Below, piece after piece: positions 2,978 through 40,174 of a DNA stretch of 64,000 nt (positions are counted from its first letter, which is position 1; each line of letters starts with the position of its first letter). The stretch is from Lacunisphaera limnophila. GTDB taxonomy: Bacteria > Verrucomicrobiota > Verrucomicrobiia > Opitutales > Opitutaceae. The position numbers were made by a program, and so were the translations under genes. A model generated the notes under the pieces. The model was not told where the DNA came from. It saw only the letters and a list, made by a program, of their open reading frames with translations, and did no database searches. Location of the stretch: the NCBI RefSeq assembly GCF_001746835.1, contig NZ_CP016094.1, positions 1,736,001-1,800,000 of the forward strand, given 5' to 3'.

Positions 2978-5900
2978 TTACGGGATGCGCAGCTCGGTGC
3001 CGATGCGGAGGACGCCGTTGGGGCCGAGCTTGTCGGCGTTGGCGGTGTAGATTTCCTGCCAGCGGGTGGCCGAGCCGTAGTAGCGCTGGCTGATGCGCGA
3101 GAGGGAATCGCCGCTGGCCACCACATGGATCCGCGCGCCCGGGGGTTGGACCGGGGCGGCGGGGGCAGTGACAGGGGAGGCCGGGGCCGGGCCACCGGCG
3201 TTGCGGGACAACATCGTCTTCAGTTGGTAGTTTTCCTGGGCCAGGACGGCGTTGGCGCCTTGGAGCTGCTGGGCGAGGGTGCGGAGGCCGGCGGCCTCGG
3301 TGCTGGATTGGCCGGTGGAGCGCTGCAGGGCGGCGAGGGACTCGCTGAGGCGGGCGACCTCGGCCTGGGCGTTGACCGCGGTGGTTTCCACCTGCGCGAG
3401 CCGGGCGGCGAGGGCATTGCGCTCGCCAGCGAGGGTGGTGGCGCTGTTGGCGGCCTCGTTCTGGTTGGCGGCGGCGGTGCGCAACTGCTCGATTTCCGAG
3501 GTGAGGGACGTCACCTGACGGGCGAGGGAGTCCTTCTCGGCGGCGATCGCCGCCGCGGATTCGCTGGCGCGATTCTGCAGGGCGTCGCGCTCCTTCTCGA
3601 GGAGTGAGTAGCCACGGAGAGCGGTGGCGAGCTTGTCCTCGGTATCCGCGAGGCGCTGCGCGAGGGCCTCGTCCGGAGCGGCGGCCGGCGCCGGCGCGGT
3701 GGTAATCTGGGCCTGGGCGGCAATCAATTGGGATTCCAGCTCAGCGACCCGGCCGGAGAGATCGGGATAAGCGGGGGTCGAGGCGGCCACGGGGCGGGCC
3801 AAACGGGCTTCGAGTTCGGCGACACGATCGGAGAGGTCGGGGTACGCGGGGGTGCGGCGCGCGTTGCGGGCGGCGGCCAGTTCGGCTTCCAAGCTGGCGA
3901 CGCGGTCCGATAGATCGGGATAGGCCGGGGCGGCGGGCCGGGCGGCTTGCAGGCGCTCGACATCGGCCTCGAGCTGGCCGATCCGGAGGGTGCGTTCGGA
4001 ATCTGTGTTGGTGCGGGCGAGCAGGGTGGCCTGCAGCGCCTGCAGATTGGTCGCGGCCTCGTCCGCGACCTGCGTGAGCCGGGCGATTTCCGCGCGGGCG
4101 GTCTCGGCGCCGGTGGTGGTTTCCGCGAGTTGGGTCTCGAGTTCCTTCACGCGCGCGGTGGCGGCGGTGGTGTCGCGCATCTGGCGGCCCGCATCGGCGA
4201 GGAGTTTCTGCATGCGCTCGCGATCGGCGCGGAGCTGGGCCACTTCGCCGGCCAGATCGCTCACGCGGGTCGAGAGCTCGTCGCGTTCGCGGCGGAGCTG
4301 GGCGTCGTCGGACTTGGCCGGGGCGGGGACTTCGGCGAGCTGGCGTTCGAGCGCTGCTTGCGCATTTTCGGCGGCGACCAGCTGGCGGGCGGAACCGGCC
4401 AGGGCGGATTCGAGCTCGGTGACACGGGCGGAGAGGTCGGGATAGGCCGGGGCCGACGGCGTGTTGGCGGCCTGCGCGAGTTGTGTCTCCAACTCCGTCA
4501 CGCGGCCCGAGAGATCGGGATAAGCGGGGGCGACGGGTTGGCGGGCGGCCGCCAGGGCGGATTCCAACTCGGCGATGCGATTGGTAAGCGCGAGCTTGGC
4601 CGCGGCTTCGTCGGCCTGGGCCTGGGCCAGCGTGGCCGATGCTTGCTGCGCACGATCAGCGGCGCTGGTGGCGGCCGCGAGCTGGGATTCCAGTTCGCTG
4701 ATGCGACCCGACAGATCAGGATAGGCGGGGGCGACGGGCTGGCGGGCGGCGGCGAGCTGCGTTTCGAGCTCGGTGACGCGGCCCGAGAGATCGGGGTAGG
4801 CCGGGGCCGCCGATTGGGCCGCGGCCAAGGCGGTCTCGGCCTGTTGCTGGGCGGCGAGCGCGGCGTCGCGGGCGCGGCTGGCGTCCAACGCCGTGGCGAC
4901 GAGGCCGGCTTTTTCCTGCGCGAGCTTGTCAACCGTGGTTGCGAGCTCGGCCTTGGCCGTGCTTTCGGCGCTCAGGCCGGACTGTGCGGCGGCGAGTTGC
5001 TTTTCCAGGGTGGACACCTGGCCGGAGAGGTCGGGGTAAGCCGGGGCGGCGGACCGGGCGGCGGACAATTGGGATTCCAGCTGGGCCACGCGTTCCGACA
5101 AGTCAGGATAGGCGGGGGCCACGGGCTGGCGGGCGGCGGTGAGATCGGTTTCGAGCTGGGCGACACGGTCGCGCAAGTCGGGGAAACCGGGGAGGGCGGG
5201 TTTCGCCGCGAGCTGATCCTTGAGGGTGGCGACCTGGGTGCGAAGTTGGGCGGCCTCGTTGCCGGCGGTCTCGGCCTGCCGGCGGAGGGAAGCCTTGTCG
5301 GATTCGAGCAGTTTGACGCTGGACTGGAGGGTGGTGCGCTCGCGGAGGGCGGCGGTGGTCGTGCCCTTGTAGTCCTCGAACTGCCGGGCGAGCGTGTCGC
5401 GGGATTTCTCGGCCTCGGCGCGGGCCTCGGTGAGCGTGGTGGTCTCGCGCTGGCGGAGGGCGGCCTCGGCGGTGAGGGCGGCGACGCGGGCGTCGAGTTC
5501 GCGGAGGCGGGGGGTGGCGTTTTCCGCGGCTTCCTGGGCGCGCGTGAGAGCGAGGGTCTGGGCGCGGGCGTTCTCGCGGCTGGCGGTGAGTTCCTGTTCC
5601 AGGGTGGCAACGCGGCCGGAGAGGTCGGGGTAGGCCGGAGTGGCGTTGCGGGCGGCGGTCAGCTGGCCCTCGAGCTCGGTGACGCGACCGGAGAGATCGG
5701 GATAGGCGGGCGCGACGGGTTGGCGGGCGGCGGTGAGATCGGACTCGAGCTGGGCCACGCGGTCGCGGAGATCAGGATAGGCCGGAGCCTTGGGCTGGTT
5801 GGCGGCGGCAAGGGCGGATTCGAGCTCGGCGACCTTGCCGGAAAGATCGGGGCGCGCGCTGAGCTTGTCGTTGGCCTGGGCGAGGGCGGCCTTGGTGGCG

Positions 5901-8182
5901 TCGAGTTCGCGGGCGAAAGTGCGTTGGGCGGCCTCGCTGCTCTGTGTCTGGCTCGCGAGCTGGGATTCCAGTTCGCGCACGCGGACGGTGAAGTCGGGGT
6001 AGGCCGGGGCGGCGTTGCGGGCGGCAGTCAGCTGGGTTTCGAGCTCCGTGACGCGACCGGACAGGTCGGGGTAGGAGGGGGCCTTGGGTTGGCGGGCGGC
6101 GGTGAGATCGGACTCGAGCTGGGCGACGCGATTGCGGAGATCAGGATACGCCGGGGCCTTGGGCTGGTTGGCGGCGGCGAGGGCGGATTCCAGCTCGGCG
6201 ACCTTGCCGGAAAGATCGGGACGCGCGTTGAGCTTGTCGTTGGCTTGGGCGAGAGACGTCTTGGTGGCGTCGAGTTCACGGGCGAGGGTGCGCTGGGCGG
6301 CCTCGCTGCTCTGCGACTGGCCGGCGAGCTGGGATTCCAGGTCGCGCACCCGACCGGACAGGTCGGGGTAGGCCGGAGCGGCGTTGCGCGCGGCGGAGAG
6401 GGCGGATTCGAGGTCGGCAACCTTGCCGGAGAGGTCGGGGTAGGCCGGGGCGGCGGCCGCGGCCTGGGTCAGGGCCGCGATGCGGGCGTCCGCGCGGGTC
6501 TGGGCGGCGGTAGCCGCGGCAAGGTCGGAGGTGCGGGCGGTGAGTTCCTGTTCCAGCGTGGCGACGCGCGGGCGCAGATCCGCATAGGTGGGTTTGGCGG
6601 CGAGATCCTTTTCCAAGGCGGCGACGCGGTCGCGCAGGTCGGGATAGGCGGGTTTGGCGGCCACGCGGGCCTCAAGTTCCGTCACGCGGGCGCGGAGATC
6701 GGGGTAGGCGGGGGCGACGGGCTGGCGGGCGCGGGAGAGTTCCTGTTCCAGGGTGGCGACGCGGCCGGAGAGATCGGGGTAGGCCGGGGCGGCGTTGCGG
6801 GCGGCGGTCAGCTGGCTCTCGAGCTCGGTGACGCGACCGGACAGATCGGGATAAGCGGGGGCCTTGGGTTGGCGGGCGGCAGTGAGATCGGACTCGAGCT
6901 GGGCGACGCGGTCGCGCAGATCTGGATAAGCCGGGGCGGCGGAGCGGGCGACCAGCTGGGCCTCGAGTGCGGCGAGCCGGGTCTGGGCGGCGGTGAGATC
7001 GCGCAGGTGGGTGGCGCGGGCCTGCTCGGCGGCACGCAGGGAGGACTCCAGCGTGGCGCGTTGGTCGGTGACCTGGTTGAGGGTGGATTCAACCTGCCGG
7101 CCGAAGCCCTGGGCGGCGACGAGTTCCTGTTCCAGGGTGGTGACGCGGTCGCGCAGGTCGGGGTAGGCGGGGCCGGCGGGCTGGCGGGCGACGGCCTCAC
7201 GAGCGGAGCGCAGCTGCGCCTCGAGGGTGGCTTTCTCGTCGTTGACGCGGTTGAGGGTGGCCTCGACCTGTTCGCCGAAGGCGCGGGCGGCCGTGAGTTC
7301 GGCGGCGGCGGCCTGGGTCGCGCGGGCTTTTTCCTCATTCACGCGGTTGAGCGTTTCCTCGACCTGGCGACCGAAGGTACGGGCGGATTCGAGTTCAGCC
7401 TGCACTGCCTGCAATTCGCGGTTTTTCTGGTCGAGGGCGGCGGCATCGGCGGCGGGGCGGGGGGCGTTCTCGAGGGTGGTCACGGCCAGGCGGGCGGTGT
7501 CGAGGGCGGCGGTGAGCTCGGCGACGCGCGCTTCCGTGGTACGGATCTGCGTCTGCAGGGTGCGGCTCGCCTCGGTGGCGGCCCGGGCGGCGTTTTCCTG
7601 CTCAGTGGAAAGGCGGAGGAGGCGGTCGCGCTCGGCGCGGAGATCCGCCATGTCGCCGGCGATCGAGTTGAGCCGGGAGGCGAGCGCATCGCGCTCGGCC
7701 TGGAGCCGGGTCAGCTCGCGGTCGTCACGGTCGGTCGCGGCGGGGCTGGTGGGGGCGGCGGGCTCGGACGGCGTGGGCGCGGGCGCGCGCGCGGGGAGTT
7801 CTTCCGCAGCGGTCGCGGCGGGCACGGTCGCGGCCGGGCGGGCCGGGGTAGCGGGACGAACCCCGAAAGCAGTGCGGCGCTCGGCGAGGCGAGCCTGGGC
7901 GGCGGCGAGGGAGTCGCGATCGAGGGCCGCGGACAGGTTGTCGAGCGCGCGACCGCGGGCGCCGTTGTCGCGGGCGAGGGAGAGCCACACGTAGGCCTCG
8001 ATGGGATCGCGGGCGATGCCGCGGCCCTCGGCGTAGGCCAGGCCGAGGTTATATTGGGCGATACCGTTGCCGCGCTGGGCCTTGGCGCGCAGGGAGGCGA
8101 CTTCGCCGCTCTCCTGGGTGAACGCAAACGGGGTGGCGAGCACAACAGCCAGCAGCAGGGCCGGCAGACGGAAAGTTTTCAT
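2978..8182 (-). CDS. Giant exported coiled-coil protein: Sel1-like N-terminus, about 27 PAYPDL repeats, C-terminal LysM
   Basis: A 1734-residue protein. Residues 1-22 form a signal peptide (MKTFRLPALLL...). Residues 30-66 match a Sel1/TPR-like repeat (AQYNLGLAYAEGRGIA). Residues 130-335 are Ala/Glu/Arg-rich coiled coil. From about 335 to 1485 runs a family of roughly 27 units built on PAYPDLSGRVTELESQL, about 24 residues each, singly or separated by plain coiled coil; variants include PTYADL and RPDLSGKV. The last 50 residues are a LysM domain (HVVASGDSLSRISQRYYG...), which binds peptidoglycan. A long rod anchored to the cell wall at its C-terminus is the natural reading; its job is unknown. 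A GTG three codons upstream could also start it. Long open frames on the opposite strand are compositional shadows. Confidence 0.85.
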   Translation of the reverse strand: MKTFRLPALLLAVVLATPFAFTQESGEVASLRAKAQRGNGIAQYNLGLAYAEGRGIARDPIEAYVWLSLARDNGARGRALDNLSAALDRDSLAAAQARLAERRTAFGVRPATPARPAATVPAATAAEELPARAPAPTPSEPAAPTSPAATDRDDRELTRLQAERDALASRLNSIAGDMADLRAERDRLLRLSTEQENAARAATEASRTLQTQIRTTEARVAELTAALDTARLAVTTLENAPRPAADAAALDQKNRELQAVQAELESARTFGRQVEETLNRVNEEKARATQAAAAELTAARAFGEQVEATLNRVNDEKATLEAQLRSAREAVARQPAGPAYPDLRDRVTTLEQELVAAQGFGRQVESTLNQVTDQRATLESSLRAAEQARATHLRDLTAAQTRLAALEAQLVARSAAPAYPDLRDRVAQLESDLTAARQPKAPAYPDLSGRVTELESQLTAARNAAPAYPDLSGRVATLEQELSRARQPVAPAYPDLRARVTELEARVAAKPAYPDLRDRVAALEKDLAAKPTYADLRPRVATLEQELTARTSDLAAATAAQTRADARIAALTQAAAAAPAYPDLSGKVADLESALSAARNAAPAYPDLSGRVRDLESQLAGQSQSSEAAQRTLARELDATKTSLAQANDKLNARPDLSGKVAELESALAAANQPKAPAYPDLRNRVAQLESDLTAARQPKAPSYPDLSGRVTELETQLTAARNAAPAYPDFTVRVRELESQLASQTQSSEAAQRTFARELDATKAALAQANDKLSARPDLSGKVAELESALAAANQPKAPAYPDLRDRVAQLESDLTAARQPVAPAYPDLSGRVTELEGQLTAARNATPAYPDLSGRVATLEQELTASRENARAQTLALTRAQEAAENATPRLRELDARVAALTAEAALRQRETTTLTEARAEAEKSRDTLARQFEDYKGTTTAALRERTTLQSSVKLLESDKASLRRQAETAGNEAAQLRTQVATLKDQLAAKPALPGFPDLRDRVAQLETDLTAARQPVAPAYPDLSERVAQLESQLSAARSAAPAYPDLSGQVSTLEKQLAAAQSGLSAESTAKAELATTVDKLAQEKAGLVATALDASRARDAALAAQQQAETALAAAQSAAPAYPDLSGRVTELETQLAAARQPVAPAYPDLSGRISELESQLAAATSAADRAQQASATLAQAQADEAAAKLALTNRIAELESALAAARQPVAPAYPDLSGRVTELETQLAQAANTPSAPAYPDLSARVTELESALAGSARQLVAAENAQAALERQLAEVPAPAKSDDAQLRRERDELSTRVSDLAGEVAQLRADRERMQKLLADAGRQMRDTTAATARVKELETQLAETTTGAETARAEIARLTQVADEAATNLQALQATLLARTNTDSERTLRIGQLEADVERLQAARPAAPAYPDLSDRVASLEAELAAARNARRTPAYPDLSDRVAELEARLARPVAASTPAYPDLSGRVAELESQLIAAQAQITTAPAPAAAPDEALAQRLADTEDKLATALRGYSLLEKERDALQNRASESAAAIAAEKDSLARQVTSLTSEIEQLRTAAANQNEAANSATTLAGERNALAARLAQVETTAVNAQAEVARLSESLAALQRSTGQSSTEAAGLRTLAQQLQGANAVLAQENYQLKTMLSRNAGGPAPASPVTAPAAPVQPPGARIHVVASGDSLSRISQRYYGSATRWQEIYTANADKLGPNGVLRIGTELRIP

Positions 8183-8294
8183 ACGGCGCACAACGGATTG
8201 GGAGGTCGGGCAGGATTGCCGGACCGGGGCCGGGCTGCAAGCCCCGCGGTGGGCGGCCTGTAAAAAAATTCGTGATAAACCCGGGCGGGTCTTT

Positions 8295-9776
8295 TCAGGC
8301 CCGCGCGCGGACGATGGCGGCCTGCCACTGGGCTTGGAGCCGGCGGACTTGTCGGGCCGGAGCCTGCGGGCGGAAGGTGCGCCCGGCGGTCCAGAGGCGG
8401 GCGATCTCGGCGCGGTTTTTCCAGAAGCCGGTGGCGAGGCCGGCGAGGTAGGCGGCGCCGAGCGCGGTGGTCTCGATCGTGCGCGGACGGATGACGGGCA
8501 CGCGGAGGAGATCGGACTGGAACTGCATGAGGGCGGGATTGACGGTCGCCCCGCCGTCGACGCGGAGCTCGCGCAGCGGGTGGCCGCAGTCGGCCTGCAT
8601 GGCGCCGAGCAGGTCGGCGCTTTGGTAGGCGATGCTTTCCACGGCGGCGCGGGCGAGGTGGCCGGCGGTGCTGCCGCGGGTGAGGCCGGTGATCAGGCCG
8701 CGGGCGCCGGCGTCCCAGTGCGGGGCGCCGAGCCCGGCGAAGGCGGGGACGAGGTAGACGCCGCCGTTGTCGGGGACGGTGGCGGCCAGGCGCTCGATGT
8801 CGGCGGACTGCGCGATGAGGCCGAGGCCGTCGCGGAGCCACTGGACGACGGCGCCGCCGATGAACACGGAGCCCTCGAGGGCGTACTCGGTTTGGCCGCC
8901 GATGCGCCAGGCGATCGTGGTGAGCAGGTTGTTTTTCGAGGCGACGGGTTTCGACCCGGTGTGGAGGAGCAGGAAGCAGCCGGTGCCGTAGGTGTTCTTG
9001 GCCATGCCCGGTTGCCAGCAGGCTTGGCCGAAGAGGGCGGCCTGTTGGTCGCCGGCGATCCCCGTGATCGGCACGCCGCGGAGGGCCGGCACGGTGGAGA
9101 CCTCGCCGAAGAAACCGCTGCTGTCGCGGACCTCGGGGAGGACCTCGGGCGGGATGCGGAGGAGGCGGAGGAGTTCGGGGTCCCAGGCGGCGGTGCGGAG
9201 GTTGAGCAGGAGAGTGCGGGAGGCGTTGGAGACGTCGGTGGCGTGAACGCGGCCGCCCGTGAGTTGCCAAAGTAGCCAGGTGTCGACGGTGCCGAAGGCG
9301 AGTTCGCCGCGTTCCGCGCGCCGGCGGGCACCGGGTACGTGGTCGAGGAGCCAGGCGAGCTTGGTGCCGGAGAAATAGGGATCGAGGAGCAGGCCGGTTT
9401 TGCGGCGGAAGAGCGGCTCGAGGCCGGCGCGCTTCAGTTTCGCGCACGCGGCCGCGGTGCGGCGGTCCTGCCAGACAAGCGCGCGGTGGAGCGGCCGGCC
9501 GGTGCGGCGGTCCCAGAGGAGGGTGGTTTCGCGCTGGTTGGTGAGACCGATCGCGGCGATGTCGCGCGCGGTGAGGTTCGCCTCGGCGAGGGCGGCGAGG
9601 GCGGTGCGGCGCGTGGAGGTCCAGAGATCGCGCGGGTCATGCTCGACCCAGCCGGGCGACGGAAAGTGCTGGGGAAATTCCTGCTGTGCGGAGCCGCGCG
9701 CGCGACCGCGGCGGTCGAAGACAATGGCGCGCGACGAGGTCGTGCCTTGGTCGAGGGCGAGGACGCAGCGGGGCAT
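8295..9776 (-). CDS. glpK: Glycerol kinase
   Basis: A 493-residue FGGY-family kinase that phosphorylates glycerol to glycerol 3-phosphate using ATP in the cytoplasm. The N-terminus [16 protein letters not shown] is the ATP-phosphate binding loop, GWVEHDP and GLTNQRETT are glycerol kinase signatures, and TYGTGCFLL and the C-terminal [19 protein letters not shown] are the second FGGY region. Length is normal for the family. No glpF or glpD lies next to it, so the operon usual in proteobacteria is absent. The 3' end is followed on the coding strand by a small GC hairpin and a T-run near 8263-8285 that may act as a weak terminator. Confidence 0.95.
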
Positions 9777-9836
9777 GGGGTGGGGAAGAAGAGACCTGAG
9801 ACTTGAAACCTGAGACCGGAGGAAGGGCGAGCGGGG

Positions 9837-10538
9837 TCAGGCCTTTGGCGGCAGGGCGGGCGGGACGTCGTCGTTCTCGAAGAGGCTGCCGGAGGAGACG
9901 GGGGCGGTGCGCCAGTTGAACGTGATCGTGAGGCTGCGGAGGACGAAAGTGAGGGCGACGGTGGCGATGGCGGCACGGTTCGCGGACCAGCCGAGGGTGG
10001 CGGTGCAGAACAGGAACACGACGGCGCCGCCGAGGGCGATGAGGAAGTAGAACTGGCCGGGCTTGAAGACGAGCGGTTCCTCGCGGCAGAGGAGGTCGCG
10101 CAGGATGCCGCCGCCGACGGCGTTGACGACGCCGACGAGGATGGCGGCTGGTGGGGCCAGGCCGGCGAGCAGGGATTTCTGCACGCCGAAGGCCGCATAG
10201 GCGCCGAGACCGAGCGCGTCCACGACCGGGATGAGCCGCGCGAAGCGGTGGATGCGGGCGCCAAACACCACGCCGCCGACGGCGGCGAGCACCACGGCCT
10301 CGAGGTAGTGGGGGTTGGTGAGGAGCGGGGTGGGGCCCTGCGCAAGGAAGAGGCCGTCACGTATGAGGCCGCCACCGAGGCCGGTCACCAGGGCCAGGGC
10401 GAGCACACCCACGATGTCGTAGTGGCGTTTGATGGCCGCGAGCGCGCCGGAGAGGGCGAAGGCAAAGGTGGCGCCGAGGTCGAAGAGCACGGGCAGGGCG
10501 AAGCTGCCCTGAAGCGAGAGCTGGGCGGAAGCGCTCAT
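9837..10538 (-). CDS. TRIC/UPF0126 (YicG-like) membrane channel protein
   Basis: A 233-residue membrane protein with two homologous three-helix halves, as in the trimeric intracellular cation channel family and UPF0126. The first half carries FALSGALAA and TGLGGGLIRD; the second repeats the glycine motif as NAVGGGILRDLL. Family members form trimeric K+-permeable channels; some bacterial relatives have been linked to amino acid handling. The last 45 residues are a soluble tail not shared with short homologues. Its start codon overlaps the stop of the upstream 120-residue membrane-anchored gene by four bases (ATGA), so the two are probably translated together. Confidence 0.88.
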   Translation of the reverse strand: MSASAQLSLQGSFALPVLFDLGATFAFALSGALAAIKRHYDIVGVLALALVTGLGGGLIRDGLFLAQGPTPLLTNPHYLEAVVLAAVGGVVFGARIHRFARLIPVVDALGLGAYAAFGVQKSLLAGLAPPAAILVGVVNAVGGGILRDLLCREEPLVFKPGQFYFLIALGGAVVFLFCTATLGWSANRAAIATVALTFVLRSLTITFNWRTAPVSSGSLFENDDVPPALPPKA

Positions 10539-34019: not shown

Positions 34020-34225
34020 GACCGCGAGCAAACAGGGCGGGTGGGATTTGGCAACTGTGGCGGCGGGAGGGATCTGCGTGATTAAAAGGGGGGCGGGCAT
34101 TGCGAGGCGGGCCCGCGCGCACGGGTTTTGTGACGGCCGTGTTTCGCCGGGGTAACGTTTTGGCGACGCCACGGGTCGCGCGTTGACCGCGGAAAAAATG
34201 TCCGTGCAGGTTCACCCCACACCTT

Positions 34226-37033
34226 ATGCACACCACGACTCCACGCGCGGGATTCCGCGCTTTTTCCCTGTTTATGCGCGCCGCGGTTGCGGCGCTCGCC
34301 TGCACCGGGCTCACCCTGGCGGCCCAGACCGCCGGCTCGCTCTCCGGCCGCGTGACCGATGCCTCGACCGGCCTCAGTCTCTCCGGCGCGCGCGTGACCA
34401 TCGCGGATACGGGACTCGAGACCTTTACCGGTCCCTCGGGTGACTACTCCTTCGGTAGCGTGCCGGCAGGTGCGGCCATCGTGGAGGTCAACTACGTGGG
34501 TTATCCGGTCGTTTCCCGTAACGTGGAGATTGGCGGCGTGACACGGTTGAACGTCGTTTTCAACAGCGAGACGGTTGAGCTGGACAAGCTGGTGATCGAG
34601 GGCGCCGCGGTCGGCACCGCGCGCGCCATCAACCAGCAGCGCGCCGCCGCCACCTACACGAACATCATCGCCTCCGACGAGATCGGCAACTTTGCCGACC
34701 AGAACGCGGCCGAGGCCATCCAGCGCATTCCCGGCGTGTCGCTCTACCGCGACCAGGGCGAGGGCCGCTACATCGTGCTGCGCGGGCTCAACTACACCTT
34801 CACCTCGGTCAAGGTGAACGGCGGCTCCTTCGCTGGCGCCGACCTCGGCGAGCGCGCCACGGCGCTCGACGTGATCCCCGCCGATGCGCTCTCCGCCATC
34901 GAGGTCACCAAGGTGCCGACGCCCGACATGGATGGCGAGGGGCTGGGCGGACAGGTGAACATCCGCACCAAGAGCCCCTTTGAGTCCGATGGGCTGGCGG
35001 CCAGCTTCTCGGCGCAGGGCCAGTATGCCGACCAGAGCGGCGAGTATTCCAAGAAATTCAATGGCTACGTCTCGCAGTTGTTTGGCGCGGACAAGCAGTA
35101 CGGCTTCCTCATCGCCCCGACCTGGCAGGAGCGCAAGTTCGGCTCGTACAATTTCGAGAACGGGGGGGCCTGGTTGTCGCCCGCCGACAACGGCACGGCC
35201 TTCTATACCATGTCCGAGCTCGCATTCCGCGATTACGTGATCAATCGCGAACGTTACGGGGTGAATGCCGCCTTCGAGGCCCGCCCGGACAGCACCACCT
35301 CCTTCTACGTCCACGGCGGCTTCAACCGCTTCACCGACACCGAGAGCCGTCATCTCACGCTTTTCGACTTCACCGAGGCCACCCTTAATCGAAGCTCAGT
35401 GACGGCGAACTCGGCCACCTACACGGGCATGCGCCGCTACGCCCGCCGGCTCCGCATCCGCGAGAAGGATCAGGATGTGACCACGTTCAGCGCCGGCGGC
35501 GCGAAGCAGCTCGGCGCCTGGAAGGTTGAGGTGCAGGCCGGGTACACCAAGGGCGACGAGCGCCGGCCCGACGAGCTTACCGCGCGCTTCCGCCGCAACA
35601 CCCGCGACACCTCCGTCCGTTACGACACGGACGGCGCCTACAACGTCAGCGTCACCCAACTGGCCGGCGCGAGTTTCTTCGAGCCCTCGTCCTACGCCTA
35701 CCAGCGCATCGACCTGGTTAACGAAAGCGGGTCCGAGACCGAGACGGATCTGGGTTTCCATGCCCGTTATGATTTCACCGGCCGTCCGGCCTACCTGAAG
35801 TTCGGCGCCCTGTTCCGCGCCAAGGAGAAGGAGTCCGAAGGCGAGGCTTACGAGCTCGGCTCCGCCCCGGCCACCTTCACCTTCGCCAACCTGGCCGAGC
35901 CGGCCAGCGATTATCCCTACCTGCGGGTCCCGCGCATCAGCACCGCCGCCGTCAAGGAGGCGTTTTATGCCAACCGCGCCGGCTTCACCGGGGGCCGCGT
36001 GTTTGAGGACAGCGAGTTTGAGGATTTCTCCCTCAACGAGGATGTGCTTTCCGGTTACGTGATGGGCGGCTCGCAGTTCGGCCAGCTCAATGTGCTCGGC
36101 GGCGTGCGCGTGGAGCGCACGGAGTTCGAGACGACGGGCAATGAGCTCGATCTGGTCAACGAGGTTTCCACGGCCCGCACGGCGAAGCAGAGTTACACGA
36201 ACGTGCTGCCCGGCGTCCACTTCCGCTACGACCTCACCAAGAGCGTCGTGCTGCGCGCTTCCTGGTCGAACTCGCTCGCCCGGCCGTCCTTCAGCGACAC
36301 CGCCTTCCGCTCGCTGGTGAACAGCGATGATTTCGAGATCACCCGGGGCAACCCGGCGCTCGACGCGCTCGAGGCGACGAACTGGGATGCGTCGGTCGAG
36401 TACTACCTGCCCTCGCTGGGCGTGCTCTCGGCCGCCGTGTTCCACAAGGAGATCGAGAACTTCTCCTATGAGTACGAGGACCCGTCCCCGCTGGTGATCA
36501 ACGGCGACAGCTACGACCTGACCACGTACGCCAACGGATCCGACGGCAAGATCACGGGCCTCGAGCTGGCCTACCAGCAGCAGCTGCGGATGCTGCCCTC
36601 GCCCTTTGACGGACTCGGGCTGATGGCGAACATCACCTTCCTCGACAGCAAGGCGGACTACCCGACGCGCCCCGGCGAGAACGTGCCCTTTGTCGGCCAG
36701 AGCGACCGCACGGGCAACCTGGCGCTCACTTACGAGAAAGCCGGCCTGTTCCTGCGTCTCGCGCTGAATTTCCGCACGGAGCGCCTGCGCGAGGACGAGC
36801 CGATCGGTGGCGCGGCCTGGCAAGACATCTACGTCGACGACTTCAAGCAGCTCGACCTCACCGCCCGTTACAAGTTGACCAAGAACTGGGAGCTTTACGG
36901 CGAGATGCTGAACCTCACCGACGAGCCCTTCCGTGTCTACCTGAACAGCCCCGGCACGACGCAGGGGAAGCGCCTCGGCCAGGTGGAGGAATATGGCTGG
37001 AGTGCCAACTTCGGCGTCCGCTGGAAACTCTAA
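34226..37033 (+). CDS. TonB-dependent receptor with carboxypeptidase-regulatory-like domain
   Basis: A 935-residue outer-membrane receptor. Signal peptide ends near residue 33 (AAQT); residues 37-115 are a CarboxypepD_reg-like beta-sandwich (GSLSGRVTDASTGLSLSGARV, GNVEIGG region); the plug follows (NAAEAIQRIPGVSLYRDQGEG, YIVLRGL), then a 22-strand barrel ending in WSANFGVRWKL. It takes up a ligand with energy from TonB. The next gene, 158 bases downstream on the same strand, is a phytase, so an inositol phosphate or a released organophosphate complex is a reasonable guess for the ligand. This receptor style is abundant in Opitutaceae. Confidence 0.93.
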   Translation: MHTTTPRAGFRAFSLFMRAAVAALACTGLTLAAQTAGSLSGRVTDASTGLSLSGARVTIADTGLETFTGPSGDYSFGSVPAGAAIVEVNYVGYPVVSRNVEIGGVTRLNVVFNSETVELDKLVIEGAAVGTARAINQQRAAATYTNIIASDEIGNFADQNAAEAIQRIPGVSLYRDQGEGRYIVLRGLNYTFTSVKVNGGSFAGADLGERATALDVIPADALSAIEVTKVPTPDMDGEGLGGQVNIRTKSPFESDGLAASFSAQGQYADQSGEYSKKFNGYVSQLFGADKQYGFLIAPTWQERKFGSYNFENGGAWLSPADNGTAFYTMSELAFRDYVINRERYGVNAAFEARPDSTTSFYVHGGFNRFTDTESRHLTLFDFTEATLNRSSVTANSATYTGMRRYARRLRIREKDQDVTTFSAGGAKQLGAWKVEVQAGYTKGDERRPDELTARFRRNTRDTSVRYDTDGAYNVSVTQLAGASFFEPSSYAYQRIDLVNESGSETETDLGFHARYDFTGRPAYLKFGALFRAKEKESEGEAYELGSAPATFTFANLAEPASDYPYLRVPRISTAAVKEAFYANRAGFTGGRVFEDSEFEDFSLNEDVLSGYVMGGSQFGQLNVLGGVRVERTEFETTGNELDLVNEVSTARTAKQSYTNVLPGVHFRYDLTKSVVLRASWSNSLARPSFSDTAFRSLVNSDDFEITRGNPALDALEATNWDASVEYYLPSLGVLSAAVFHKEIENFSYEYEDPSPLVINGDSYDLTTYANGSDGKITGLELAYQQQLRMLPSPFDGLGLMANITFLDSKADYPTRPGENVPFVGQSDRTGNLALTYEKAGLFLRLALNFRTERLREDEPIGGAAWQDIYVDDFKQLDLTARYKLTKNWELYGEMLNLTDEPFRVYLNSPGTTQGKRLGQVEEYGWSANFGVRWKL

Positions 37034-37099
37034 GACAAGTTTGGCCATCCGGGCCGGTGGGTGCAAACCTGCCGGCCTGCGGCGTTTTCGCTCAAAGGC

Positions 37100-37172
37100 A
37101 GGAGCATGCTTCTCGGTGATGCAGTCTTTTGCTGGCGGCGAATGATCCTGAGTCGCCTGCGAGCAGGCTCCT
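37100..37172. repeat. REPIN-like inverted pair upstream of the phytase
   Basis: AGGAGCATGCTTCTCG on the left mirrors AGGAGCCTGCTCGCAGG on the right with several mismatches. It fills most of the gap between the TonB receptor and the phytase gene. Confidence 0.6.
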
Positions 37173-37191
37173 ATGACCAATCCCCTACCAA

Positions 37192-38862
37192 ATGAACAAA
37201 GCCCTTTCTCTTTTTGCTCTCCTGTTGGTGTCTCTGATCGCGGCCCGTGCCCAGCCGGACGGCCATCTCCCGTTCCGACCGGATCTGGCCGCGGGCGCCG
37301 CCTACCGAATCGAGGCGAGCGCGCTGCACCCGACGCAGTTTTCCCATGGCTGGCGCGAGGTCGTTTACAAAGCGGCCAAGATCAACGCCATGACACCCGC
37401 GGAGGTGAAGGCCTACCTCATCGACAAGGACGTGCCGGTCGTCATCGGCCCCGGCGGCGTGCCCTACATGACCGACGGCCATCACACGCTGCGCTCGCTG
37501 CTGGAGTCGAGCGCGCCGGACAAGACCGCGTATGGCCACATCCTCGCCAACTGGTCGGCCCTGCCGCCGGAAGAATTTTGGTCCCGCATGCAGGCGAACA
37601 ATTACACCTACCTGCAAGATGCCGCCGGTCAGGTGCAGCCGCCCTCGGCCCTGCCGGCGAGCCTGCTTGTCATGCAGCGCGATGCCTGGCGCGGGCTCGC
37701 CTGGGGCGTGATGAAGGCGAACGGCTTTCACGAGCGGAAAGATATATACTTCCAGGAGTTCCGCTGGGCAGATTATTTCAGGACGCGGATCCAGTGGGAT
37801 GACGCGGACGACGATGCCTTCGATGACGCGGTGAAGGCCGCCTGCGTGCTGGCCCAGGCCCCGGCCGCCGCGGCCCTGCCGGGCTATCGGACGACGGCGG
37901 TCCACCCCCGGGTGATCACGGAGCCGGCGAAGCATGACACCGACGACCCGGCCATCTGGATCAACCCGGCGGATCCGGCGCAGAGCCTGGTGCTCGGCAC
38001 GGACAAGAACTCCGACGGCGCGTTGCTGGCCTATGACCTTGCGGGCCGGATCGTCCGCTCCGTAACCGGACTCAAGCGGCCCAACAACGTGGATCTGGTC
38101 AGCGGCTTCAAACTCGGCGGCCGCACGGTGGCCATCGCGGTTGTCACCGAGCGGGAAATGAAGCGCCTGCGGGTCTTCACCGTACCGGATCTCGCCGCCG
38201 CCGACCGGGGCGACCTGGTGGTGTTTGGCGGTGACCCGGAGCGCGCCCCGATGGGCGTCGCCCTGTACCAGCGGCCCCGCGACGGCGCGGTGTTTGCCAT
38301 CGTCGGCGGCAAGTCCGGTCCGGCGGAAGGTTATCTCGCGCAATACCGGCTGGAGGATGACGGCACCGGCCAGGTCAAGATGACCCTGGTGCGCGAGTTT
38401 GGGGCCTACAGTGGCCGGGCCGAGATCGAGGCGATCGGCGTCGATGCCGAGCTTGGTTTTATCTACTATTCCGACGAGACCTTTGGCGTGCGCAAATACG
38501 CCGCCGATCCCGATGCGCCCGACGCGAACCGGGAGCTTGCGCTCTTTGGCACCACCGGATTCGCCTCCGATCACGAGGGCATCTCCTTCTACAAGCGTGC
38601 GGACGGCACCGGATATCTGCTGGTGTCCGACCAGCAGGCGCATCGGTTTCAGATTTTTCCCCGCGAAGGTGTCGCCGGGCGACCACACGAGCACCCGATG
38701 ATCAAAGCCGTCGACGTGGCTGCCATTGAGAGCGACGGCAGCGAGCTCACCTCGACAGTGCTGCCGGGATTTCCCGGCGGCCTTTTCGTGGCGATGACGG
38801 AGGGCAAGGTGTTCCACTTCTACGCGTGGGATGACATCGCCAAGGCCGCGGGGTTGGAGTGA
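37192..38862 (+). CDS. Exported ParB-like domain / beta-propeller 3-phytase fusion
   Basis: A 556-residue secreted protein. Signal peptide ends at residue 20 (ARAQ). Residues 35-200 match the ParB-like nuclease domain found in secreted proteins (ParBc_2): TPAEVKAYLIDKDVPVVIG, then YMTDGHHTLRSLL at residue 93, and YTYLQDAAGQ. Residues 235-556 are a beta-propeller phytase: KHDTDDPAIWINP, TDKNSDGALLAYDL, LKRPNNVDLV, EIEAIGVDAELGFIYYSDE and DHEGISFY keep the calcium and phosphate ligands of Bacillus PhyC. The phytase half should release phosphate from phytate; the role of the ParB-like half is unknown. It lies behind the TonB receptor. Confidence 0.9.
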   Translation: MNKALSLFALLLVSLIAARAQPDGHLPFRPDLAAGAAYRIEASALHPTQFSHGWREVVYKAAKINAMTPAEVKAYLIDKDVPVVIGPGGVPYMTDGHHTLRSLLESSAPDKTAYGHILANWSALPPEEFWSRMQANNYTYLQDAAGQVQPPSALPASLLVMQRDAWRGLAWGVMKANGFHERKDIYFQEFRWADYFRTRIQWDDADDDAFDDAVKAACVLAQAPAAAALPGYRTTAVHPRVITEPAKHDTDDPAIWINPADPAQSLVLGTDKNSDGALLAYDLAGRIVRSVTGLKRPNNVDLVSGFKLGGRTVAIAVVTEREMKRLRVFTVPDLAAADRGDLVVFGGDPERAPMGVALYQRPRDGAVFAIVGGKSGPAEGYLAQYRLEDDGTGQVKMTLVREFGAYSGRAEIEAIGVDAELGFIYYSDETFGVRKYAADPDAPDANRELALFGTTGFASDHEGISFYKRADGTGYLLVSDQQAHRFQIFPREGVAGRPHEHPMIKAVDVAAIESDGSELTSTVLPGFPGGLFVAMTEGKVFHFYAWDDIAKAAGLE

Positions 38863-38944: not shown

Positions 38945-40174
38945 ATGAAACGTTATGCCCCCTTGGTGGCCCTCGCGCTTTGTCTGACCCTGCTGAGCCT
39001 GCCGTTGCTGGCGCAGGGCACGGCGAAAGCCGAGACCAAGACGGCCAAGACGCCCGGCCTGGAACTGGCGGCGATGGCCACGCAGGTCACGGGTATCGCC
39101 ATCTCGCCTCTGCTGGGCGTGAGCGCCGTGGGTGCGTACCAGTACTTCAAGGCGGCGACCCCGGAGGAGAAGGCGGCGCTGCCCTGGTTTGCCAATCCGT
39201 CCTTCTGGGCGCTGGGCGTGCTGATGGTGGCGGCGGTGGCCTTCAAGGACGCGGCCGGCGCCACGTTGCCCCCGGGCTGGAAGAAGCCGTTGGATGTCCT
39301 CGAGACGATTGAGAACAAGGCCAGCGGGCTGGTCGCGGCCGGCGCGGTTATTCCCTCGCTGATCACCTTTGGGTCGAAACTCTTCATGGATTCCGCCGGG
39401 TTCGGTGGCACGGTGGAGCTGCATTACACTGGTCTGGCGATGCTGCCGGTGGCGTCCATCGACACGGGCTGGCTGCTGAGTCTGCTGATGGTGCCGCTGT
39501 CGGTGGCGGTTTTCGCCGTAGTGTGGCTGACCGCGCATGCGATCAACGTGTTGATCCTGCTCAGCCCCTGGGGCGCGATCGATGCGGCGCTCAAAGGCGT
39601 GCGCACGGGCGTGCTCGGGCTGGTGACCGCCACGGCTTGGATCGACCCGGTGGTCGGCGCGACGCTGTCGGTGGTGATCATCATATTCGCCTATTTCACG
39701 GCGGGCTGGGCGTTCCGGCTAATGACCTTCGGCTCGGTGTTCTGCTGGGATTTCTTCACGGTGCGGCGCAAGCGGTTCAAGCTGCTGGCGGACGGCAACA
39801 AACTGTTTACCGGCGCGGAATTTGAAGGCGTGCCCCCGCGCACCTACGGCCGGCTGCATCAGGCGGCGGATGGCGGCCTGACGCTGAAGTTCCGGCCGTG
39901 GCTCGTGTTCCCGGCGCGCGAGGTGCCGGTGCCGCGGGCGGGTCTCGTGGTTGGGCGCGGGGTGTTTTTTTCCGAGGTGCTCGGGCACGACGCGAAGCGG
40001 GACCAGAACCGCACGCTGCTGCTGCTGCCGCCGCGTTACCTGGGACACGAGGAACTCTTCGCCCGCACCTACCATATCTCCGGCACCTGCGAGGTCGGGT
40101 TGCGCAAGGCCTGGAGTTGGATCAAGGAAGCGGTGGGCTTGGGCACAAAAAAGACCGCCACCACGGCGGTCTGA
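38945..40174 (+). CDS. Exported/membrane protein of unknown function (possibly DUF4126-related)
   Basis: A 409-residue protein with a cleavable signal peptide (LALCLTLLSLPLLAQG) and about six further hydrophobic segments, followed by a soluble C-terminal half (residues 270-395) with no motif I know. The stretch LLGVSAVGAYQYFKAATPEEKAALPWFANP and the glycine-rich helices remind me of DUF4126 membrane proteins, a weak match. Its last eight residues (TKKTATTAV region) are encoded by the terminator hairpin of the convergent DUF3185 gene. Confidence 0.7.
   Translation: MKRYAPLVALALCLTLLSLPLLAQGTAKAETKTAKTPGLELAAMATQVTGIAISPLLGVSAVGAYQYFKAATPEEKAALPWFANPSFWALGVLMVAAVAFKDAAGATLPPGWKKPLDVLETIENKASGLVAAGAVIPSLITFGSKLFMDSAGFGGTVELHYTGLAMLPVASIDTGWLLSLLMVPLSVAVFAVVWLTAHAINVLILLSPWGAIDAALKGVRTGVLGLVTATAWIDPVVGATLSVVIIIFAYFTAGWAFRLMTFGSVFCWDFFTVRRKRFKLLADGNKLFTGAEFEGVPPRTYGRLHQAADGGLTLKFRPWLVFPAREVPVPRAGLVVGRGVFFSEVLGHDAKRDQNRTLLLLPPRYLGHEELFARTYHISGTCEVGLRKAWSWIKEAVGLGTKKTATTAV
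40147..40172 (-). terminator. Intrinsic terminator of the DUF3185 gene, inside the convergent coding end
   Basis: On the minus strand AGACCGCC pairs with GGCGGTCT and is followed by TTTTTT. It ends the DUF3185 transcript 20 bases past its stop while encoding the last codons of the plus-strand gene, which suggests a compact convergent arrangement. Confidence 0.85.

Follow-up and report, generated by a model that had tools for sequence, protein, structure and literature searches.

An exported ParB-like domain fused to a beta-propeller phytase behind a TonB-dependent receptor suggests a phosphate-scavenging role for ParBc_2 in Opitutaceae

The window analysed here, a stretch of 64,000 nucleotides from Lacunisphaera limnophila (contig NZ_CP016094.1, positions 1,736,001 to 1,800,000 of the forward strand), carries the gene of a TonB-dependent receptor, followed by that of an exported protein in which a ParBc_2 (PF08857) domain is joined to a beta-propeller phytase (Table 1). 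The fusion is a new combination of domains from known families. Together with its importer and a switch in common with the phosphate-uptake genes, it suggests that this soil/freshwater bacterium uses a widespread ParB-like domain as a tool to scavenge phosphate. Our preferred, still tentative, explanation is that the locus forms an operon for the use of organic phosphate during phosphate starvation, with the ParBc_2 half as a second phosphate-handling enzyme.

Table 1. Features of the receptor-fusion locus, in positions of the window
Feature	Position	Strand	Basis
Pho-box-like array of 11-bp units, GTGACGGCCGT GTTTCGCCGGG GTAACGTTTTG GCGAC	34130..34167	+	genome-wide pattern search
TonB-dependent receptor, 935 aa: carboxypeptidase-regulatory-like N-terminal domain, plug, barrel	34226..37033	+	PF13715, PF07715, PF00593, TIGR01782
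Exported ParBc_2-phytase fusion protein, 556 aa	37192..38862	+	profile matches, PDB relatives, orthologous fusions
Signal peptide, residues 1-20, no lipobox	37192..37251	+	read from sequence
ParBc_2 (PF08857) domain, residues 40-197	37309..37782	+	E 2.9e-46; 2HWJ homologue
DGHHT, residues 95-99, candidate phosphate-binding (P) motif	37474..37488	+	conservation, motif alignment
Beta-propeller phytase domain, residues 232-537	37885..38802	+	PF02333 E 3.2e-37; Foldseek; active-site map
Conserved 409-aa gene, possible operon member	38945..40174	+	adjoins fusion gene in 5/7 fused loci

In profile searches, the window ORF matched PF08857 with 157.9 bits (curated cut-off 23.6) and PF02333 with 128.9 bits (curated cut-off 21), while a PDB search with the fusion returned the Bacillus beta-propeller phytases (E 1.7e-27) as well as Atu1540 (2HWJ, E 2e-23). 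The signal peptide, MNKALSLFALLLVSLIAARA, shows a positively charged N-end, a hydrophobic core and ARA preceding the mature protein. Domain matches and signal peptide thus confirm the original prediction of a receptor gene followed by an exported ParB-like and phytase protein, whose coordinates and DGHHT motif were also correct; a lack of ParB similarity in the N-terminal half, which had been set as its refutation, was not found, since PF08857 was matched there. The receptor (TIGR01782, E 9e-168) possesses both the plug and the beta-barrel of TonB-dependent receptors, and its ORF is separated from that of the fusion by 158 bp. The 409-aa protein encoded downstream had no match in Pfam or NCBIfam, and its gene is located elsewhere in some other genomes; its N-end is signal-like and it contains hydrophobic stretches.

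The phytase half had been described as complete, which is almost correct, as the profile match spans positions 28-332 of 375 and most of the active-site residues are present, with two of them replaced. Among the positions which we take to be the Ca- and phosphate-binding residues of the phytase (D55, D56, K76, R122, Y159, K179, E180, E211, E227, E260 and D314), Y159 is substituted by M354, which is invariant in the family, and E180 by S375, with equivalents of the other nine retained. The model of this half, with a pLDDT mostly between 80 and 95, matched 1qlg in Foldseek (E 1.3e-17, prob 1.00). Judging from these residues, activity on phytate is likely, although its efficiency is uncertain. 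Elsewhere, a 696-aa protein (L061:1329-3419, G341) carries two phytase domains in tandem.

In an alignment of 26 ParBc_2 proteins, residues P47, T48, Q49, G53, D95, H97, H98, F129, W130, R167, F190 and W192 were invariant, and all of them are kept in the seven fusions known to us. The homologue 2HWJ presumably belongs to the ParB/Srx fold; AlphaFold2 gave the ParBc_2 half a pLDDT of 48 when modelled alone and of about 30-80, mostly below 60, in the full model, and fold matches for this half were not used because of the low pLDDT and shallow alignments. The DGHHT motif aligns with the DGHHR of the ADP-dependent free serine kinase, a match that covers the motif region only and is sub-threshold (E 0.25-0.33), although three of the six top-ranking sequences out of 177,635 were such kinases. 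Canonical chromosome-segregation ParB was considered and rejected, i.e. the protein has a signal peptide and DGHHT instead of a GERR-type CTP motif, the Pfam scan found no HTH domain, no parA lies among the flanking genes scanned, and a receptor gene is located upstream. The name 'ParB' implies no DNA segregation here.

A search for other proteins with both domains, as the original prediction had proposed, found six further assemblies of Opitutaceae/Verrucomicrobia (G170, G182, G380, G411, G425 and that of L008; loci L007, in G411, L008, L009, in G380, L057, L062 and L063), in all of which a receptor gene lies upstream on the same strand. The three orthologues aligned over their full length are 65-76 % identical to the window protein. 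Since seven assemblies share the same gene order, an assembly error is ruled out; the window genome itself is a single 4.2-Mb contig. In most of the Opitutaceae loci examined, the receptor gene is kept directly 5' of the phytase gene, and in one genome (G430, L103) a split version occurs, with receptor, phytase and ParBc_2 as three consecutive genes. No plasmid record spanned the whole fusion and no phage record matched it. The genome search covered the phylum of the window and the contig scan used peptide patterns specific to the window fusion, so that distant fusions would be missed.

Exported ParBc_2 domains also occur with other partners. On two plasmids of Vibrio pelagius (L107:5992-7536 and L118:6001-7545), the exported domain (residues 33-225, E 2e-36) is followed in the same protein by an inorganic pyrophosphatase (residues 348-511, E 2e-34), and exported ParBc_2 is thus joined to two unrelated phosphate-releasing enzymes. 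The Vibrio protein is annotated only as 'ParB-like protein'. ParBc_2 lipoproteins are present in V. coralliilyticus and Cupriavidus, and G330 (L100, L101) harbours a free exported ParBc_2 directly after a different receptor, with no phytase. In G085 (L064:4136-6313), the protein continues beyond its exported ParBc_2 with a passenger-type repeat and a PEP-CTERM-like end, which suggests attachment to the cell surface. In two genomes of one genus (L102, L104), a free exported ParBc_2 lies beside genes for a dicarboxylate symporter-like protein and a secreted M14 peptidase. Many members are cytoplasmic and without phosphate context, often beside a gene with a YetF domain, so that activity on phosphate compounds need not hold for ParBc_2 as a whole; on Burkholderiales plasmids (L023, L025, L093, L105), a ParBc_2 gene without signal peptide followed by a YetF/DUF421-domain gene forms a conserved pair. 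A scan of viral contigs yielded five ParBc_2 relatives, none of them seen to be exported.

Phosphate-starvation control, earlier no more than a guess, gains real support from the promoter. PhoB/PhoP boxes are direct repeats with eleven-bp spacing, and upstream of the receptor genes we found GTNAC units at a period of 11 bp. A near-perfect GTCAC pair at this period was present in 12 of 21 receptor loci, against a background mean of 0.29 (maximum 2), while control periods of 9, 10, 12 and 13 bp gave 4, 0, 1 and 1 loci of 21, respectively. A four-unit array with 13-15 of 16 matches, near-unique within its locus, is present in the split operon and in each of the six fused loci for which sufficient upstream sequence was available. 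The pattern search of the whole window genome returned this four-unit pattern at only three places, i.e. before the receptor gene, at the start (L126:3434-3471) of a porin (PF16930, Porin_5)-pstS-pstC-pstA-pstB-phoU operon (3483-10299; G000:C1:2744433), and at a third site (L127), which was rejected as a Pho site, as it adjoins no gene of evident phosphate function and is probably due to chance. Across 100 Opitutaceae genomes, 44 pattern sites were found vs 4 for the reversed control, and of 26 sites examined, 8 lie next to pstS, pstC or a porin gene and a further 2 next to a receptor gene. PF16930 porins are Pi-responsive in Pseudomonas (PMC5082522).

Two-unit boxes precede five of nine ParBc_2 genes without phytase partner (background 1.7 % each), a pattern selected after inspection in loci of which some are related. 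Two Cupriavidus ParBc_2 lipoprotein genes are preceded by canonical Pho-box-like CTGTCAT-type boxes, the Vibrio fusions showed no clear Pho box, and no classical E. coli Pho box was found in the window with up to 3 mismatches allowed. A first PhoB scan had given a weak signal, from which the 11-bp GTNAC form was derived; as this core was settled on only once the sequences had been inspected, independent evidence comes from the controls for period and for reversed pattern and from the match at pst. In box orientation (flanking G or C), the receptor promoter is unlike the pst promoter. Taken together, the array, the pst match and the boxes before other ParBc_2 genes argue that the receptor-fusion operon is very probably Pho-regulated, and make the 11-bp GTNAC array a candidate Pho box of Opitutaceae.

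On this basis, a PhoB-type regulator would switch on receptor and fusion at phosphate scarcity, as the common promoter array suggests. The phytase half, judging from its family and residues, would strip phosphates from phytate-like Ca-inositol polyphosphates. The ParBc_2 half would most likely be a second phosphate-handling enzyme, whose DGHH may grip the di- or polyphosphate of a nucleotide, a pyrophosphate-containing compound or an inositol polyphosphate; it would cleave or transfer phosphate, leaving the partner domain to finish the products to Pi. Uptake into the periplasm, either of the organic phosphate or of a partly dephosphorylated product, is the probable task of the receptor. A role of ParBc_2 in phosphate acquisition is backed by the pyrophosphatase fusion, by the split operon and by the secretion of a PF08857 lipoprotein by P. 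fluorescens SBW25 under Pi starvation (PMC5082522), and exported ParBc_2 very probably takes part in phosphate scavenging. The original interpretation, in which the ParB-like half may bind or hydrolyse a nucleotide or phosphoester, is thereby supported in part. As for the kind of activity, we rank a putative phosphohydrolase or phosphotransferase acting on nucleotides or polyphosphates first, with a binding module and a nuclease behind it. Speaking against the preferred explanation are the sub-threshold kinase match, the cytoplasmic members without phosphate context, the small share of genomes with unfused ParBc_2 that have a phytase, the Vibrio fusions with no clear Pho box, and the difference in box orientation between the receptor and pst promoters.

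A binding module would capture phytate or polyphosphates in the pocket formed by DGHH, PTQ and R167 and perform no chemistry itself, concentrating substrate for the attached hydrolase much as carbohydrate-binding modules do on glycosidases. Phosphate-gripping motifs are present, and both fusion partners are complete hydrolases, so that a second activity would not be needed. However, the free exported ParBc_2 proteins with Pho-like boxes have no attached enzyme and need a job of their own, and the set of invariant residues (D, two H, R and T/Q) resembles that of a catalytic site, which leaves this alternative rather unlikely.

The ParBc_2 half could also be an exported nuclease that degrades extracellular DNA or RNA for phosphorus while the phytase covers inositol phosphates. 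This would agree with the Pfam family label, with the view of the SBW25 authors, who describe their lipoprotein as carrying a ParB-like nuclease domain and as an extracellular nuclease responsive to Pi (PMC5082522), and with the exported nucleases found in other Pho regulons, such as that of Caulobacter (PMC11208175). The label, however, is by similarity only. The free serine kinase, an archaeal protein, had itself been annotated as ParB, and its close relative from P. furiosus had been reported as a 'ParB-like nuclease' (PMC5120207), so that little weight can be given to the corresponding label of PF08857; moreover, the products of a nuclease would be unsuited to both phytase and pyrophosphatase, and we consider this explanation unlikely.

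In a sample of 200 Opitutaceae genomes, phytase was found in 54, ParBc_2 in 14 and the fusion in 6; co-occurrence of phytase and ParBc_2 at the genome level had an odds ratio of 4 (p 0.02), which is not independent evidence, as six of the eight genomes concerned are the fusions themselves. Unfused ParBc_2 occurs in 8 genomes of the family, only 2 of which also have a phytase. Unfused phytases of the family have a signal peptide of their own, in many cases including a lipobox (e.g. LAGC in L012), and the part shared with the fusion starts at PRVVTEP...DTDDPAIW, while free ParBc_2 proteins terminate in ...SPAAAxLPGY. In the fusion, the phytase leader is replaced by a whole ParBc_2 protein, including its signal peptide and LPGY end. 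The fused phytases fall within one well-supported clade of 17 that includes unfused members, so that the fusion was either gained once and lost or gained repeatedly; the ParBc_2 tree allows a single origin, with weak support.

The patchy distribution, the mixture of fused and unfused phytases and the joining of a full-length ParBc_2 would all agree with a neutral read-through of two neighbouring Pho-regulated exported genes, with halves that remain independent. Yet the gene order of the split operon is reversed (phytase, then ParBc_2), so that read-through of this operon cannot directly have given rise to the fusion, ParBc_2 has been fused a second time, to pyrophosphatase, and the fusion persists although the ParBc_2 halves are only 56-75 % identical, which makes a chance fusion improbable. 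That the locus is an ordinary phytate receptor-phytase operon with the ParBc_2 half as degenerate baggage is very improbable, since, although most phytases of the family lack ParBc_2 and receptor-phytase gene neighbours are already known (PMC3400609), with a further pair seen on a plasmid, the invariant ParBc_2 residues are all intact in the seven fusions.

Returning to an enzymatic ParBc_2, its exported members might, with somewhat less than even likelihood, form a new class of Pho-regulated extracellular phosphohydrolases or phosphotransferases of the ParB/sulfiredoxin fold, repeatedly joined to Pi-finishing enzymes, i.e. phytase in Opitutaceae and pyrophosphatase in Vibrio. Our literature search found no paper linking PF08857 to phytase as a fusion, and the architecture may be present without comment in domain databases; a survey of the ParB-CTPase fold from 2025 was based on PF02195 and made no mention of PF08857/ParBc_2 or of exported members (PMC12704722). 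PF08857 is widespread and known only as a 'putative nuclease', and the two fusions, the split operon, the boxes common to pst and the secretion published for Pi starvation indicate a function in phosphorus acquisition; with these independent lines, the substrate of ParBc_2 becomes directly testable. If the domain is an enzyme, the ParB/sulfiredoxin fold would enter extracellular phosphorus cycling, and the analysis further yields a candidate Pho box for the family.

Compared with known systems, the window phytase has the propeller fold and most active-site residues in common with Bacillus TS-Phy/PhyC (1H6L/3AMR), but is only about 29 % identical, differs at Y159 (M) and E180 (S) and bears an extra exported ParBc_2 domain at its N-terminus. 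The receptor-phytase loci of Citromicrobium and Sphingomonas likewise combine an exported phytase with a receptor encoded immediately ahead of it, but lack ParBc_2. Atu1540 (PF08857, 2HWJ) shares the whole domain and the invariant PTQ, G, D-x-HH, FW, R and F-x-W with the window protein; however, the window protein is exported and has phytase as fusion partner, whereas neither a fusion partner nor an evident signal peptide is present in Atu1540 and in many plasmid members. SerK, the ADP-dependent free serine kinase of the ParB/Srx fold, has the same DGHH motif of phosphate-binding type, but overall similarity is not significant, and SerK acts on a known substrate in the metabolism of the cytoplasm. 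The PF08857 lipoprotein of SBW25 resembles the window fusion as an exported ParBc_2 tied to Pi starvation, but no phytase part is mentioned for it (PMC5082522).
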